A stretch of DNA of 39,874 nucleotides, from contig JH994068.1 of NCBI GenBank assembly GCA_000316135.1, positions 1 to 39,874 of the forward strand, in the 5' to 3' direction. The stretch comes from Trachipleistophora hominis (taxonomy: Eukaryota; Microsporidia; Pleistophoridae). Positions 1,478 through 32,341 of this stretch are shown here, piece after piece; position 1 is the first letter of the stretch, and each line of letters opens with the position of its first letter. Below the pieces are notes generated by a model that worked only from the letters and a program-made list of their open reading frames with translations, searched no databases and was not told where the DNA came from. The position numbers and the translations under genes are program-made.

Positions 1478-1553
1478 TGTTGGTTCAGGGTCAATGTTCC
1501 CTATTTAATCAGATAAATAAATACCATTCATGTGGATGTTCTGCGATCTAACA
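1478..1553 (+). mobile_element. LTR-like short element, copy D (diverged)
   Basis: This 76-bp unit starts TGTTGG and ends CTAACA. It shares the core CTATTTAATCA.(n).AAATAAATA with the copies at 27528, 31677 and 32264. The flanks are ATTAT on the left and ATTAG on the right, a near-perfect 5-bp target-site duplication. The TG...CA ends and 5-bp duplication are typical of LTR retrotransposon ends, though this is much shorter than usual LTRs. It is the most diverged of the four copies. Confidence 0.5.
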
Positions 1554-5821: not shown

Positions 5822-7070
5822 GCAGGATGATTGTCCTTTATTAGTACTAAAACATTTTTACGTTCTTTCTTTTCTAACCAAACGGTTTAAAAGTTATAAA
5901 ATTATTTAGCATAGCATGTATTATAAATAATGAGTGTAGAGTATTATAGTATGTAGGTTAGATAAGATAGGTTAGATTAGGTTAGGGTCGTAGTATACGG
6001 GTTAGTAAGTAATTACTATTATTAACCATAACTTACTATTATTATGTACTATAACTTACTCTACCCTCATATATACTCTCATCATCTACCCTCATCATCA
6101 TTATCCTCATCATCTACTCTCATCATCATCTACTCTCATCATTATATACTACCCTCTCCAATACCCTCATAATTATTATCCTCATCATTATCCTAATAAT
6201 AATGCTATTAATCCTTCTACAATATATTAAATGTTGTAATGCTTAACTATACTACGTACTTATACCATTGTTATTAATTATAACATTCTCTTTATACGGT
6301 ATAAGAGTATAAAATGTTATACATTAATTAACGATTGATCCTACCAGACAAGTCTTACATAGAATGGTAATTAATACTACACTTATACTTATAATACATT
6401 CTTAACTACCTACGTATTACTTATAGAGAATATTAGGTTAGTTGTACTGTACAGTAAGCCAATGCCTTATAAACAGGTAATACTCTTCATTCTACAATCT
6501 TAGTACCTATAAGTGTAGTATAAAGGGTTATACTACGTTAAGGATTGCTTATCTCATGCATTAGAATGTTGTAGAGATACTTTCTGTAGTATTTCTTATT
6601 AATACGTATAGAATAGGAAGAGTTAGAATGTTTTATACGTATTAATAAATACTATCATAGTATACTCTTAGTATAATTTATGTTAGTATTAGAGATACGT
6701 TGTTTAAACGTAGGGTTAGTATACTTTCTTAGTATAAGTATTATTTCTTAGTATAAGTATTATTTCTTGGTATGGGTATAGTCTCTAAATAGAGATATAG
6801 TCTCTTAATACAGGTATAACCTCTTTATAGAGGTATAACTGACCTCTCAATCACAACATTTTCATTCATCCATCCTTTCAATTATAACCATCCATTAACA
6901 GCCCTCTCAATTACAACCACTAAACAATCCTTTTAAAACCTCTCTCAACCACTCAATAACCACTCCATCCACAACCCTCTCTATCACAACCCTCTCAATA
7001 AACACTCCATTCTTGCATCCCTTGTAAAATACCACACATAAAAATATGTGCCATAAAAAATGCAGCCCTT
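5822..7070. other. Gene-free spacer with simple repeats
   Basis: GGTTAGATTAGGTTAGG-like units (about 5945-5990) and (C)TCATCAT/CTACTCTCATCA runs (about 6060-6200) are visible. At 6770-6840 TATAGTCTCTTAATA-type units recur. Pyrimidine-rich CCTCTCAATCACAACC units occupy about 6840-7010. No open frame here has coding-like composition. Confidence 0.5.
7066..7068 (+). promoter_or_regulatory. CCC motif before HRD3-like start
   Basis: CAGCCCTT directly precedes the ATG at 7071 and is the reason this start is preferred over the in-frame ATG 21 bases downstream. Confidence 0.45.
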
Positions 7071-14839: not shown

Positions 14840-15830
14840 CAATTTGTTGTACGCACCCCTCCGGCCGAGTTTTAAATAAATGAATGCCGGCCGTATTTTT
14901 GCTGATACGGGAGCTCAGCACTCACCGTAAACAGAAGCAGCATGACACACTGTCGTGCAAAATGACACGATAGGTATGTCGAAATCTTGATAGGTTGTAT
15001 TTTGCACCGCTGTTTTGTACGGCGCAAACGTATTTATACTTTTAGAACATTTATGTATTTATGCGCATTACCATATATAGGCATAAATAAGCTTATTTTG
15101 CTATGCAAAATATTTTGTACGGTAATATGTCAAGAGAGATTACGTTTAATTTTAATGAGATGATAGAGTGCAGCCCAAAATGATACAACAATTTTATCAC
15201 CACGACATGAGATGCATTTTTATATAAAACACGGTTTAGTATCTGCAGGGCCATTACTTATCAAGACCAAAATTTTTTAGCCACCAAAAAAAATCTGCAT
15301 GAAAATGAAAAGCATGAGCAAAAATTAAATTCACCATTATATCGCCATACCAATACAAAATTAACGTTTTAAGTAACATTTTGTTCTCACCTGTTATCAT
15401 GCATCACTCGTAATACGTAAACAGTCTATATGATTCGATAGAAGCCTCTATAATATGAGCAATGAACGATAACGGAAAGGATAGAACGGAGGGTTAGAGG
15501 GTCAGGCTGAAAGACAAATGTCAATATTAGTGATATTACCTCCTATTTCCATTTTTAACGTTCATCACCCATTCTACCCCCTTTCCTCCAAATTAATTCT
15601 TCTCTCTTCTTACTAAAACATCTTTCCTACTTTTCTCAGCACAGTAAACTCTTCCTGTCCTAAAGAACGTATTATTGTCATTAATCTTTAATTTAATATT
15701 TCTATTCTTGTTAATTTTTATTCTTTCATTAAAAGAGTTTTGTTTAAAAATCTGGTGACTTCTCTTTGTTAAGCCAAATTTTCTTTTCCTTTTCGTACGC
15801 CACAAAGCAAACACTGATCCATGAATTAAA
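14840..15830. other. AT-rich spacer upstream of zinc-finger gene
   Basis: The first 100 bases are relatively GC-rich, with GGCCGG words, and probably form the promoter region of the zinc-finger gene. The remainder is AT-rich. A minus-strand 73-codon frame (15814-15593), very Lys/Arg/Asn-rich, is not called because its composition follows base bias and it has no C-run promoter. Confidence 0.45.
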
Positions 15831-17393: not shown

Positions 17394-19358
17394 TCAATCA
17401 ACACTTAACAGTCCCTTCTTAATACGTAGCACCAAGTAAATTATACAAACGCTCGTGCTCATTCTCATCCCTGCTATTACAAACAAGGCAAACGCTAAGA
17501 AACATTTTACATTTACTTTATGCATCATGTTAAGGAAGAGAAACGTAGAAATGGTGAACAACGCATTGCTAAGGGTAAGTAAATTGGTGCGGTGCAGAAC
17601 GGTTAGGGCGGTGGTTACGAGTAGGAGAAGGGGCACGTAACGAACGCATGGCATAATTACGTTTAAATGTTTATGCGATGCATAAATGGTAGAATAAGGT
17701 TGTTGAGGAGGAGCATCGGCATTATTATCCTTTATACTATCAATGGTATAATTACCTTTTAGGGTATCAATGGCGGTAAGGAAGTTATCAATGCTGCTCT
17801 TCTGTTCGTACTGATCGTTACTACGATCAGAGACACTCTCGTTGTCTGTGCCGGTGCTCTGCTGTTCATCACACGTAGTGTGAATGCGTTCCTTAATGCT
17901 GCGCATTAATGCATAAACATGTTTTATATTCTCCATCAACCGCTCGTTCATGTCCTCGTCCTTAATTTCATGCGCAATAAAATCGATCATGCATAAAACG
18001 TTGAAATTAAGGAAACCGTGCCTGAAGAGCACAACACAGGCGAAATTGAACGCGTGCCTTAGCCACGCGTTATCAACGGTGAACAGCGCTACGTTGTAAA
18101 CAATGGTGTTGATTATGCCGGTGTATGCGCTGATGATCAGCACGTTAAGTGCGTTGATAGAAAGGACGAGCAGTACGCCCGTATTGCACGTGATCAACGA
18201 TCCTATCACGTACGATAGTACGTGCATTATCAGAGGGGCCCTTTCAATGCCATCAAAAATATTTATGCGTCGTATTATGTTCATCATTTTAGGATACGAC
18301 AAAATGAAAAGAACGAGCCGGCCGGTAAAATACGGCAGGTGTAGGAAGCGGAGCGCATCGATGACATCGTCCTTTAGATTGCAAATTAAGGCAGTGTAGA
18401 ATGTTCTGTTATTCTGTCTTGTTATTATTTTATGCATTTTCTTATTCATGCTTTGCATGAACCTTTGCATTTTATGCAGTGTTGTATTTCTGTGTGGGTT
18501 GTTTTTACGTTCTTCGTTTGTTTTACATTTTTGGTTTGTTTTACGTTTTTGGTTGGCGTATTGTTTTGTATGTTTTACTTTATTCTTCTCTTTGGCAGTG
18601 TTTCTTCCATTAGGGTTCTCGTTGGCGGTGCTTCTCTCGTTGAGATTCTCATTAAGGCTCTCATTAGAAGCGTTTACCTCATCAGAAATGTTTCTCTCAC
18701 TTGTAGCTTCCCCATTGAAAACACCTTTTCTATACAAATCACTTTTCTCTTCCAAACCATCTCCGTAAGAATTACCTCCACTAAAACATCCCCTCTCCAC
18801 GTCACTTCTCTCATCATATCCACTAAAAAAGAACAACGCCCTATAATCCTCATAGAACGTGTACAACACGTACACAACCATTCCAACCACTCCTTTACAA
18901 ATTACATCCCCTCCTTTTATCACGCACAGGTACTCATCCATCAAATACCGGTCCTTTCCAATTCTCTCCAATCGCACACAATGCACTGCCAATTTGACCA
19001 GAACGGCCGTAACAAGGAAATACGACAAGGAAATGCACGGCATAACGAAGACGTGCACCAACAAATGGTAGACGACCAGAACAGCACTACGTGCCGTAAA
19101 GCGTAGCACGGCATTGCCGTGCATAAAAACGCTGTTACAACGCATTGCTGCGTTTTTATGCAACGCATTAATGCGTTGCATTCTTTTATATTCGTGTTTT
19201 ACGTGCTTATTGACCGTTTTTGTTGTCTTGAGCTCGTCGTACTGATCGTTAGCCGCCGTTTTGTTAGCGTTTTGGTTGTTTATGTGTCGATGGTGATCAT
19301 TTGTCCTTTTTTGTTCATCAGCACTAAACTTTTTTGGATGATCGTGTTTAACTTCCAT
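17394..19358 (-). CDS. Large polytopic membrane protein, unknown
   Basis: A 654-residue protein. After about 80 charged residues come two to three transmembrane segments (about 83-175). A hydrophilic loop of about 130 residues follows, full of Asn, Glu, Lys and Arg with short repeats (NERSTANENPNGRNTAKE; then KTNQKCKTNEER). The second half has at least six hydrophobic segments (about 345-470 and 575-650) around a polar loop. I do not recognise the family; I considered nuclear-envelope and ER transport proteins but see no diagnostic motif. GCCCC lies about eight bases before the ATG on the minus strand, supporting the start and a real gene. Two copies of the TTTATGC...GCATAAA word (17670 and 19155) fall inside the reading frame. 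Confidence 0.7.
   Translation of the reverse strand: MEVKHDHPKKFSADEQKRTNDHHRHINNQNANKTAANDQYDELKTTKTVNKHVKHEYKRMQRINALHKNAAMRCNSVFMHGNAVLRFTARSAVLVVYHLLVHVFVMPCISLSYFLVTAVLVKLAVHCVRLERIGKDRYLMDEYLCVIKGGDVICKGVVGMVVYVLYTFYEDYRALFFFSGYDERSDVERGCFSGGNSYGDGLEEKSDLYRKGVFNGEATSERNISDEVNASNESLNENLNERSTANENPNGRNTAKEKNKVKHTKQYANQKRKTNQKCKTNEERKNNPHRNTTLHKMQRFMQSMNKKMHKIITRQNNRTFYTALICNLKDDVIDALRFLHLPYFTGRLVLFILSYPKMMNIIRRINIFDGIERAPLIMHVLSYVIGSLITCNTGVLLVLSINALNVLIISAYTGIINTIVYNVALFTVDNAWLRHAFNFACVVLFRHGFLNFNVLCMIDFIAHEIKDEDMNERLMENIKHVYALMRSIKERIHTTCDEQQSTGTDNESVSDRSNDQYEQKSSIDNFLTAIDTLKGNYTIDSIKDNNADAPPQQPYSTIYASHKHLNVIMPCVRYVPLLLLVTTALTVLHRTNLLTLSNALFTISTFLFLNMMHKVNVKCFLAFALFVIAGMRMSTSVCIIYLVLRIKKGLLSVD
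17670..17686. repeat. TTTATGC-N-GCATAAA inverted-repeat word inside CDS
   Basis: TTTATGCGATGCATAAA, read in the membrane-protein gene as part of a Tyr-Ala-Ser-His-Lys segment. Confidence 0.45.
19155..19171. repeat. TTTATGC-N-GCATAAA inverted-repeat word inside CDS
   Basis: TTTATGCAACGCATTAA, inside a cluster of GCATTGC, AACGCATT and GCGTTGC words at 19120-19185. Confidence 0.45.
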
Positions 19359-22131: not shown

Positions 22132-23415
22132 TCATTCCCTTAACATAACACTCTCCCCCTTAAAATCACTCTCCACCTCAGTATACTCACTCTCAGTCAT
22201 ATACATCTCCTCATCCACCCTCTTTCTTCTCCTCAAACTAACATGTATAATAGGCGCCGTCGTACCATGCAATATAACACTGCACATCACCATCATATTA
22301 ACAATCTTAACGAGCTCATCATCCAACTTAATACAATCATTGGCATGTGTTATAAAGAATAGGGCACCTACACCAATAGGACCATACCAGCCAGCAAAGA
22401 ATGCCTCACGCATATTAAACAGCTGGGGAATGAACGGTCGGCCTGCTATGATAAGCGGTAAACGGCGCAGAAAGATAATGAGCAGGGCAAGCGGCAGATA
22501 ACGAATGTGGGAGGTAAAAGATGCCCCGAATAGAATGAAAAAGGAGGCGTTGATCATGAGATCAAGCACCTCATACAATGAACTGTCTTTGATCTCGTCT
22601 TGGTACTCGCCGTCCCACGCAAATATCATGCCGCAGAAGAACGATGCAAGAATATCATCGCTTTTGAGCAGCCCTGTAATGCCCGTTACAACAAATGCAA
22701 GCGCAAGAAGATACGCCAGGATGTTCTCCTTGTCGATGAAATTCTTGCGGTGCGATATGACCAGCAGCTTCTTGGCAACGAAGCCGATCGCTAGACCAAG
22801 AATCACCGCTAGAAATATTTCGTACAGCCATGTGTGGATGAGCCACTTGTTGAACGCCTTCTTGAACGGAAGGCGCATCGCAAAAATGGGCAGTGTGAGC
22901 AGGGGGAAGCCTAGGCCATCGTTCAGACCGCTCTCAAGAATCAGAAGGTGTCTCAGGTGGGTCGGTATGTAACGGTTCGCAAACTTTCCTTTAAGCACCG
23001 ATGATGCAAGCACCGGATCAGTGGGCGTAACGCATGCACCTACGATCATGCTCGCCCACAGCCCTAAATCAGTCATCCAGAACGTAAGGCATGTGCTGAT
23101 TGCATACGTGAGCAGAAGAAGGGGGACGAGCAAAATGAACAGGGACTGGAATTGCCTCACAACGTACCTCTTGGGCACAATGGTGCCTACGGCAACCACC
23201 TGCAACGAGATAACCATCCGTGACAGATAGAACAGCATTGTGGGATAGTCCTCAAACTCGAGGATGTTAAAGCCTTTTGGCCCAATCACAATGCCAAACA
23301 GAGTGGCTATAACGGTCTCTGAGATATAAAGGCGCTCTTTTATAAGCAGCGACACCAGGCCGAATATCAGCGTGAAAATTCCGTACAGCGATAAAATAAT
23401 GAAGAAGTGTTGCAT
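22132..23415 (-). CDS. Na+(K+)/H+ antiporter, fungal NHA1/SOD2 type (CPA1)
   Basis: A 427-residue polytopic protein of the cation:proton antiporter family closest to fungal Nha1/Sod2, which exchanges Na+ or K+ for H+ at the plasma membrane. Seen: about 11-12 hydrophobic segments; the family block CVTPTDPVLASSVLKGKFA (about 128-146) and HLRHLLILESGLNDGLGFPL (about 153-172), whose ESGxNDG carries the acidic ion-binding residue. The long cytosolic tail of yeast Nha1 is reduced to about 45 residues (RRRKR then acidic). The open frame extends upstream to a GTG at 23496, but the ATG at 23415 is directly preceded by TTTAACCCT, the promoter motif, so the shorter start is chosen. Confidence 0.88.
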   Translation of the reverse strand: MQHFFIILSLYGIFTLIFGLVSLLIKERLYISETVIATLFGIVIGPKGFNILEFEDYPTMLFYLSRMVISLQVVAVGTIVPKRYVVRQFQSLFILLVPLLLLTYAISTCLTFWMTDLGLWASMIVGACVTPTDPVLASSVLKGKFANRYIPTHLRHLLILESGLNDGLGFPLLTLPIFAMRLPFKKAFNKWLIHTWLYEIFLAVILGLAIGFVAKKLLVISHRKNFIDKENILAYLLALAFVVTGITGLLKSDDILASFFCGMIFAWDGEYQDEIKDSSLYEVLDLMINASFFILFGASFTSHIRYLPLALLIIFLRRLPLIIAGRPFIPQLFNMREAFFAGWYGPIGVGALFFITHANDCIKLDDELVKIVNMMVMCSVILHGTTAPIIHVSLRRRKRVDEEMYMTESEYTEVESDFKGESVMLRE

Positions 23416-23417
23416 AG

Positions 23418-23424
23418 GGTTAAA
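23418..23424 (-). promoter_or_regulatory. AACCC motif fixing NHA1-like start
   Basis: On the minus strand TTTAACCCTATG ends in the chosen start codon. The motif lies inside the longer GTG-initiated frame, which argues against that longer frame. Confidence 0.55.
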
Positions 23425-23481
23425 TATTAAAGGAGGGATATAAAAGGAAAGAAGTGCAATTGAGGAGAGAGGGAAAAGAAA

Positions 23482-23691
23482 ATGTTGTTTATGCACATCG
23501 CTTCGCTTTTATACTTTTCAAGTTTTGTTTATGCGACGCATGAAACAGAGGCGCTCTTGCATTATCGCTCAACTATTTTGGATCGTTTTTCTAAATGTGT
23601 TTTTATTCATCCATTCCTCAAAAACACGTGCGCATACTCGTCGTGTTTGCTAAGTTCAACGTTACTGTGCGTGGCGTGTAACCAAAAATAA
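23482..23691 (+). CDS. Possible small secreted Cys-containing protein
   Basis: ATG frame of 69 codons, divergent from the NHA1-like gene. Residues 1-18 (MLFMHIASLLYFSSFVYA) look like a cleavable signal peptide, followed by a short mature part with five Cys. A TTTATGC...GCATGAA word (23528-23544) lies inside. There is no C-run before the ATG, only purine-rich sequence, so it may be a chance frame. Confidence 0.25.
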   Translation: MLFMHIASLLYFSSFVYATHETEALLHYRSTILDRFSKCVFIHPFLKNTCAYSSCLLSSTLLCVACNQK

Positions 23692-27478: not shown

Positions 27479-27527
27479 ATAAAATTGTTTTTTCGCGAAA
27501 TTTTCTTTCTATCTTCGATGACCTATA

Positions 27528-27604
27528 TGTTGGGTCGATACGTGTTGCAACATAAGGTTATTTATTTAAGTGATTAAATAGAGGTGATTGGTTCCGAGCC
27601 AATA
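27528..27604 (-). mobile_element. LTR-like short element, copy A, with perfect 5-bp TSD
   Basis: A 77-bp unit beginning TGTTGGGTCGATACGTGTTG and ending GTTCCGAGCCAATA. It is flanked on both sides by CTATA (27523-27527 and 27605-27609), a perfect 5-bp target-site duplication. Ends are near-inverted (TGTTGG / CCAATA). It contains GTTGCAAC, TATTTAAGTGATTAAATA and a TTGGTTCCGAGCCAA foldback. Confidence 0.7.
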
Positions 27605-28987
27605 CTATAATTGGCAATTAGTTTTATGTTCAAATAATTTGCTTAGATTAATATGAGCTGAACTATTCTAAGTTCATATTTTTTACATTTCATTCGTGAT
27701 TAGTTTTACAGAAGGATTGTACCACAACCATCACTTCGTTCAGTATGGTGGCCAAAAATCACCTATATCATATTTAAATAATTTGGTTTAGAATTTCCTT
27801 TCGAGTTATAATTAAAATTTATAGTCAGATCACATACATAAATTTCAGTCATTTAAATAATTTTTGACTGTACATACTTCAACAAAATGATAACAAAAAC
27901 AATTAACATACATTATTAGATTATGATTATACCGTTTCAACTCTGAATTTTGACCGTTAATAATAGGTTAACTATAGCATAGTGATAATTGGTCTTAATA
28001 ATCACTATAGAGAACGTTTAACAGAAGTCATGTTAATCTATTATTTTGTTTCTTTAAAATTATAATCATCACACAATGAATATCAAATCTGAGAGTTTGG
28101 CCGGTAATTAAATTGAAAAGGCCGTAATCTCAAAAAGAATTTTATCTATCTTTATGGGAGGAATGGTTAAAACGATAACTCGTCGTGTAAACAGTAAATA
28201 ATTATTTTCTACCATATTATATCTTTTTGCAATTGTAAAAAGACATCAGGTTTTTGAACAACAGTAGATTATATTTCAAAAATCTATTAGGACCAGCTAA
28301 TCTATTTTATTTAGCAAAGAAAGATTAATTGACGTGTATTTTGTAGATGTTTTTCCTCTTTGTTTCAATTTTGTTGTAAGTCGACCATTTCTGCATTAGC
28401 CGCACTCCTCAATAGGAATTAAATAGTTAATTTGTAGCTTAGAAATGAAAATTTCCATACATATTGATCATAAATGATCGTAAAGTGAGTTAAAACGTGA
28501 AAATAGCAAACACTGTGGTATTATGATCTAAAGTTGAACAAGATAATTCTGATTGTTTCTTATACTAATAAGCCTTCGAGTTCTCTTATGATAAATCTTA
28601 ACGATGGTTAATAAGTTACAAATGTCGACCCACAATTGTACTGGAAATAATTAACTGTGTTTTTGGTAACACAAATAAATTCCCTGTGCTAATATATTGT
28701 TCATAGGTTTAAAATGCTCTCATAAAAATAAATCGGACAAGATTGATTAGTTTTATCTCTTTATTGGACTGGATATTATAGCTTAAGTTCATATCGTTGA
28801 ATAAACACAAAAAATTTCAAAGACCACCATCTATGTTTATTATATTACTAAGGCCATCATTTGTACAATCAACAAGCAACTAGATGAACAGTTATGTTGA
28901 ATATACAACAATTGTATTGATGAATGAGACTGATACTTTTTATAAATGAAGCATTAACCAACTTTCTCCTTTATGGTGTTTGCTTGC

Positions 28988-31676: not shown

Positions 31677-31754
31677 TGTTGGGCCGATACATGTTGCAAC
31701 ATGAGGATTGTTTATTTAGGTGATTAAATAGAGATGGTTGGCACCGAGCCAACA
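31677..31754 (-). mobile_element. LTR-like short element, copy B
   Basis: A 78-bp unit from TGTTGGGCCGATACATGTTG to GGCACCGAGCCAACA. Terminal inverted repeats are good (TGTTGGGCC / GAGCCAACA). No target-site duplication is evident (GTCTT versus ATAAC). Confidence 0.65.
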
Positions 31755-32263: not shown

Positions 32264-32341
32264 TGTTGGCCCGGAGCCAACCTCCTCTATTTAATCACTT
32301 AAATAAATACCTCTTATGTTGCAACACGTATGGGCCCAACA
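32264..32341 (+). mobile_element. LTR-like short element, copy C
   Basis: A 78-bp unit from TGTTGGCCCGGAGCCAACCT to CGTATGGGCCCAACA. In this orientation a TTGGC-CCGGA-GCCAA hairpin opens it. TATTTAATCACTTAAATA and TGTTGCAACA follow. Flanks AATAG and AACAT are only weakly alike. Confidence 0.65.

Follow-up and report, generated by a model that had tools for sequence, protein, structure and literature searches.

A 77/78-bp dispersed repeat of the microsporidian Trachipleistophora hominis bears the marks of retroviral-type integration and may be a solo LTR

A 77/78-bp unit present in a 39,874-nucleotide stretch of Trachipleistophora hominis DNA (contig JH994068.1, hereafter called the window) is a dispersed repeat, and there is good support for insertion of its copies by an integrase that is of the retroviral type or closely related to it. 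The unit likely works like a solo LTR, and we do not file it as a proven one because the search revealed no element bounded by such LTRs. With moderate confidence, we regard it as a solo LTR left by a Ty3/gypsy-like retrotransposon that had ultra-short LTRs and is now extinct or is missing from the assembly. This reading is favoured by a second family in the same genome, in which a gypsy element has even shorter LTRs, of about 49 bp, and leaves mostly solos.

A first-pass annotation of the window had described one unit (copy A) that starts with TGTTGG, ends with CCAATA and is bordered on both sides by CTATA, and all of these features were confirmed (Table 1). The three further copies reported as its relatives (B, C and D) share 66/77, 69/77 and 50/75 aligned positions, respectively, with A. 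No duplication was observed in the 5-mers flanking copy B (GTCTT/ATAAC) or copy C (AATAG/AACAT), and the flanks of copy D were, as described earlier, ATTAT and ATTAG, alike at four of five positions. A genome search with copy D returned D alone, and hence no second close copy of it. The remark that no internal region with reverse transcriptase is present agrees with the result that neither RVT_1 nor rve matched anywhere on C104, the contig of the window.

Table 1. Positions of the repeat units and related features. Coordinates are those of the window unless a contig or locus is given.
Feature	Position	Strand	Remarks
Copy A, 77/78-bp LTR-like element	27528..27604	+	77 bp, TGTTGG...CCAATA
Left target-site duplication of copy A, CTATA	27523..27527	.	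5 bp
Right target-site duplication of copy A, CTATA	27605..27609	.	5 bp
Copy B	31677..31754	+	78 bp, without target-site duplication
Copy C	32264..32341	-	78 bp, without target-site duplication
Copy D, divergent	1478..1553	-	76 bp; profile covers right 55 positions only
Solo copy of 49-bp gypsy LTR	6315..6359	+	45 bp, E 7.1e-9, flanks TAAAA/TAGAA (4/5 alike)
Dispersed repeat TCACC..GGATTTTT..AAA.AAA.CTCTTT	15723-15758; also L131, L096, L095, L040		
Decayed Ty3/gypsy element	L052:2564-5565 = C108:48063-51064	-	~3.0 kb, 48-49-bp LTRs

The part of the genome that was searched comprised 5,508,218 bases on 119 contigs. Patterns drawn from the 19-base core (up to two mismatches), the left end and the right end (up to three mismatches each) gave 68, 69 and 48 matches, respectively, and the reversed-pattern control gave none in all three cases. 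Exact patterns had no match in viral or prokaryote contigs. A list of 80 distinct places was compiled by hand from the pattern matches, and a profile search of the window and of the loci around those places returned 81 distinct matches. Ten of these, including copy D, were excluded owing to a missing end, a short flank or an N, and counts for this family therefore refer to 71 copies. Only units of 71-84 bp were seen; the length of 77 bp originally given for the element applies to 10/71 copies, but the commonest length is 78 bp (45/71). The TG...CA ends were similarly retained for the family as a whole, since 63/71 copies start with TG, 61/71 end with CA and 57/71 have both, although copy A itself ends with TA. 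The mean pairwise divergence of 0.149 was that of a family which is old on the whole. The central part of the element is variable in blocks (alignment columns 29-34) and column 66 is C in 44/71 and T in 26/71 copies, suggesting that there were several source subfamilies. A second, weak and divergent copy (E 2.7e-7) was seen on the minus strand of a 581-base locus (L018, C85:23260-23840), opposite in strand to the good copy.

Exact 5-bp target-site duplications flank 27/71 copies and duplications with one mismatch a further 18, where flanks taken from different copies would give approximately 0.8 and 7.3, respectively. When flanks were dealt at random 500 times, exact duplications averaged 1.19 and never exceeded 6, and duplication by chance was thereby rejected. 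With the same boundaries, duplications of four or six bases were found in none of the 71 copies. Among the 27 exact duplications there are 22 different 5-mers, indicating that most represent separate insertions. Centred on the duplication, a target palindrome of approximately AATT[ATWAT]AATT was evident (A at -8 in 58/71, T at -7 in 50/71, A at +7 in 46/71 and T at +8 in 61/71 copies), with binomial p values of 7e-7 to 2e-17 against flank composition. Symmetric targets arise from concerted joining by an integrase multimer. Ends, duplication and target together argue for an integrase of the retroviral type or one closely related to it. Retroviral-type integration, as proposed in the first-pass annotation, was upheld by these three features and by a nested insertion described below, and it survived a genome-wide test against copies lacking duplications or constant ends (27/71 exact, 57/71 TG...CA).

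It is highly improbable that the unit is not mobile at all, whether as an RNA gene, as a regulatory site or as an AT-rich or self-complementary motif arising by chance. The unit is indeed short, AT-rich and partly self-complementary, and a 5-bp match at the spacing of copy A is encountered by chance at 0.26% of sampled window positions. Against this, the length of the duplication is fixed at five and its frequency is far above that of the shuffles, no match to Rfam or to a tRNA was obtained within the window, and the nested insertion has uninterrupted relatives. RNAalifold, which alone was used for structure prediction, detected no paired structure in the 71 aligned copies. A SINE, a tRNA or a structured RNA element was rejected on the same Rfam, tRNA and RNAalifold results.

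For each of the 71 copies, both flanks were joined less one duplication and compared with the other extracted loci. Junction-spanning matches numbered 32, several of them weak, and came from 9/71 copies. The clearest case is a copy (L026, C45:82953-83030) with the exact duplication AATAT that sits within a 49-bp LTR; across its junction, eight uninterrupted relatives could be aligned, at 73-80% identity. This 77-bp copy therefore moved when the 49-bp LTR was already there. Another copy (L040), with the exact duplication AAACT, lies inside a different repeat, for which four uninterrupted relatives of 80-91% identity were found. The relatives are in both cases paralogous repeats and not allelic empty sites. 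The dispersed repeat listed in Table 1 is an insertion site of the 77-bp element. We also observed that C107:4600-9392 and C111:2700-7490 (L056 and L053) are duplicates of each other over about 4.8 kb, at 95% identity; the duplication continues outward for about 0.8 kb and ends near LINE-like reverse transcriptase fragments. It stops short of the 77-bp copy at C107:2942, and no empty site was found there.

A gag-pol region between paired copies, which the first-pass annotation had proposed to look for, did not materialise. Five same-strand pairs lie within 10 kb of each other (on C85, C32, C51 and C4, and copies A and B in the window; 1.9-8.6 kb apart), and they were rejected as full-length elements because there is no RVT_1 or rve match on those contigs. 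The A/B and C85 pairs were rejected also because copy A and L017 on C85 each have an exact duplication of their own. Neither TGG nor a primer binding site (PBS)-like stretch follows any of the 71 copies on either strand, and on the one strand that was searched none is preceded by a purine- or G-rich tract (at least nine purines or at least four G in ten bases). No common inside sequence was seen among the flanks; some repeats were common to them, at varying distance. A pair resembling SMART or TRIM elements (two LTRs, a PBS, a polypurine tract (PPT) and a short inside) was not found among the 71 copies. The LTR reading of the first-pass annotation was thus sustained in its insertion signature, whereas LTR identity came out as likely only, with 0/71 copies adjoining a PBS-like stretch.

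The finding of 71-84-bp units only, with no insides, is also consistent with a MITE, that is, an internally deleted DNA transposon with the ends TGTTGGGCC/GGGCCAACA, moved by a Ginger2/Tdd-like transposase with a 5-bp stagger at AT-rich sites, an alternative that we consider unlikely. The ends of the unit are inverted over eight of nine bases in 22/71 copies and over seven of nine in 27/71, which suits a MITE as well and weighs against a solo LTR, as do the 26/71 copies without a clear duplication, in which at least two of the five bases differ. The TGTNR ends and AT-rich targets are shared by Ginger2 elements, and the 5-bp duplication by TDD-4/5 (PMC2836005). In Nosema, a family with a 5-6-bp target-site duplication and terminal inverted repeats (TIRs) starting with TGT is placed among MITEs of unknown superfamily (PMC4405373); it belongs to the same phylum and agrees in duplication length and terminal letters, in a comparison made by description only. 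However, the TIR of the 77-bp unit is at most 9 bp, as against 45-297 bp for the Ginger2 elements listed, which encode a transposase and mostly make 4-bp duplications at 6-bp RTATAY targets (PMC2836005); neither long TIRs nor an rve-type gene was found with the 77-bp unit. The sole rve match in the genome is that of the gypsy element, and no transposase with these ends was found, rve being the only transposase family searched. Ginger1 was rejected, as its CCGG/CCGT targets (PMC2836005) are unlike those of the 77-bp family.

Nine RVT_1 matches were obtained in the genome, seven of them over the cut-off, on seven contigs. By inspection, the regions on C108 and C16, which match each other, are of the gypsy type, and the others look LINE-like, either by inspection (L056) or by DNA similarity (L053, L054, L057 and L058). 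The single rve match is on C108 and has one stop inside; a separate piece of integrase frame there had no Pfam match, a piece of RNase H fell below the cut-off, and the pol frame contains stops. RVT_1 and rve lie between terminal direct repeats of 48-49 bp, which are 84% alike and about 2.95 kb apart. The 5' repeat is followed by a PBS-like stretch, TGGTGGAGAAC..., and the 3' repeat, TGTTATATATT...TCTTACA, is preceded by a G-rich tract; the flanks of the element are ATTAT and ATAAT, alike at four of five positions. With a putative PBS and PPT in place, these repeats are the LTRs of a pol-bearing Ty3/gypsy element. The worry that 77 bp would be too short for an LTR, raised in the first-pass annotation, is answered by them.

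A search for tRNA acceptors matching the PBS-like stretch of C108 in exact letters gave no match. The stretch occurs at three places in the genome, on C108, C10 and C16, in each case immediately downstream of a 49-bp LTR, whose left end is degenerate on C16, and none adjoins a 77-bp copy. The distance from this stretch to the reverse transcriptase is about 0.7 kb on C108 and the same on C16, and gag must therefore be very small or have been lost. No second gypsy integrase was found in the searched 5.5 Mb, and the only rve match belongs to an element with other ends. Absence from these 5.5 Mb is weak evidence, since the published assembly is 8.5 Mb and the genome is estimated at 11.6 Mb (PMC3486916).

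The right end of the 49-bp LTR had 87 matches in the genome (control, none), nearly all of which have no gypsy sequence adjoining them. As the PBS-like stretch is present at only three places, few copies can be 5' ends. Thus, LTRs of about 49 bp are real in this genome and, as far as seen, mostly solo. For counts of duplications, 47 of the 87 matches were taken and one was dropped. The 46 copies include the 3' LTR of the gypsy element (L052) and two 5' LTRs (L055 and L136), and in two of them (L026 and L071) the counted left end belongs to an adjoining 77-bp copy. Exact 5-bp duplications were present in 11/46 copies and one-mismatch duplications in 12 more, and shuffled flanks gave a mean of 0.52 and a maximum of 3 exact duplications; duplications of four and six bases were seen in two copies and one copy, respectively. 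Among the 31 copies with TG...CA ends, seven have exact and nine one-mismatch duplications. The target palindrome of these 31 is approximately TA[TTWAA]TA (T at +6, 0.87; A at +7, 0.77; A at -6, 0.74; T at -7, 0.55).

Both families fit the end pattern TGTNR, which is that of most gypsy LTRs (PMC2836005). If the 77-bp unit is a solo LTR, its TG...CA ends would have been joined by a retroviral-type integrase, at a 5-bp stagger, to a target that was palindromic and AT-rich, and gap filling would have produced the 5-bp duplication. The unit itself would once have flanked a gag-pol region, and recombination between two LTRs would have removed the inside and left one 77-bp LTR. The differing target motifs of the two families suggest that the 77-bp copies were not the work of the one gypsy integrase we found, unless its choice of target has changed. 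On this ground, the integrase that served the 49-bp family was provisionally rejected as the agent of their insertion.

In both families almost every copy is solitary, and the 77-bp copy inside a 49-bp LTR moved later than that LTR. These observations might also be accounted for by a mobile piece consisting of an LTR only, to which a gypsy-type integrase would give mobility in trans; for the 77-bp unit, perhaps together with the 49-bp unit, this appears quite improbable. In addition, 49-77 bp would offer little homology for recombination, for which 50-100 bp is cited in yeast (PMC3281118). On the other side, the two families have different target palindromes, and solo copies are, as is well established, the ordinary outcome of LTR-LTR recombination. 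The wider form of the proposal, in which both families (about 49 and 77 bp) are LTR-only mobile units that possess nothing except integrase-recognised ends and are served by gypsy-type integrases in trans, is likewise doubtful. If true, such units would be among the smallest mobile units derived from retroelements, and the solitary copies would be explained.

Returning to the favoured solo-LTR reading, Ty3/gypsy elements make up most of the LTR elements of microsporidia, and a single LTR family is given for T. hominis (PMC4202319, Table 1). The T. hominis genome paper described LTR elements by protein trees, and its transposable-element and repeat-method sections are silent on LTR length. The 77-bp family resembles solo LTRs of Ty3/gypsy elements in its TGTNR-type TG...CA ends, 5-bp duplication and dispersed single copies (PMC4202319, PMC3486916); it differs from them in that no element with an inside is known and in a length far below that usual for LTRs. 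Very short LTRs and 5-bp duplications are also found in FRetro129/SMART of grasses (PMC3281118). FRetro129, called the smallest LTR retrotransposon in 2012, has 292 bp, with LTRs of 85 bp and solos of 79-87 bp (PMC3281118). Its LTRs are close in length to the 77-bp unit and clearly longer than 49 bp. Complete FRetro129 elements exceed solos 3.4 to 50 times (PMC3281118), the reverse of the 77-bp family, for which only solos were seen; this contrast weighs against the solo-LTR reading. In literature from which subscription papers were mostly absent, no title on microsporidia with solo LTRs or target site duplication was that of a dedicated microsporidian LTR study, and nothing was found that joins microsporidia, gypsy, LTRs and primer binding site. 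We make no claim that the 49-bp LTRs are unpublished.

Were LTRs of 49-77 bp to serve as functional ends, they would have to fit a promoter, an R region and a polyadenylation signal into fewer than 100 bases or do without them, and the known minimum requirements of LTR retrotransposons would be lowered. In other microsporidia, 'MITEs' with TGT ends and 5-bp duplications may then also be solo LTRs. The excess of solos despite scant homology raises the question of how little LTR-LTR recombination needs in these parasites.

The window itself is eukaryotic and microsporidian. In the same genome, the beta-tubulin encoded on contig C107 shows complete identity over 440 aa with that of Trachipleistophora hominis. 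The top protein matches of a Na+/H+ antiporter encoded at 22132-23496 are at 93% and 76%, and its named relatives are from Astathelohania contejeani (54%) and Hamiltosporidium (52%). An open reading frame at 17394-19358, which has no clear Pfam family, had one named match, in Vavraia culicis, at 39%.
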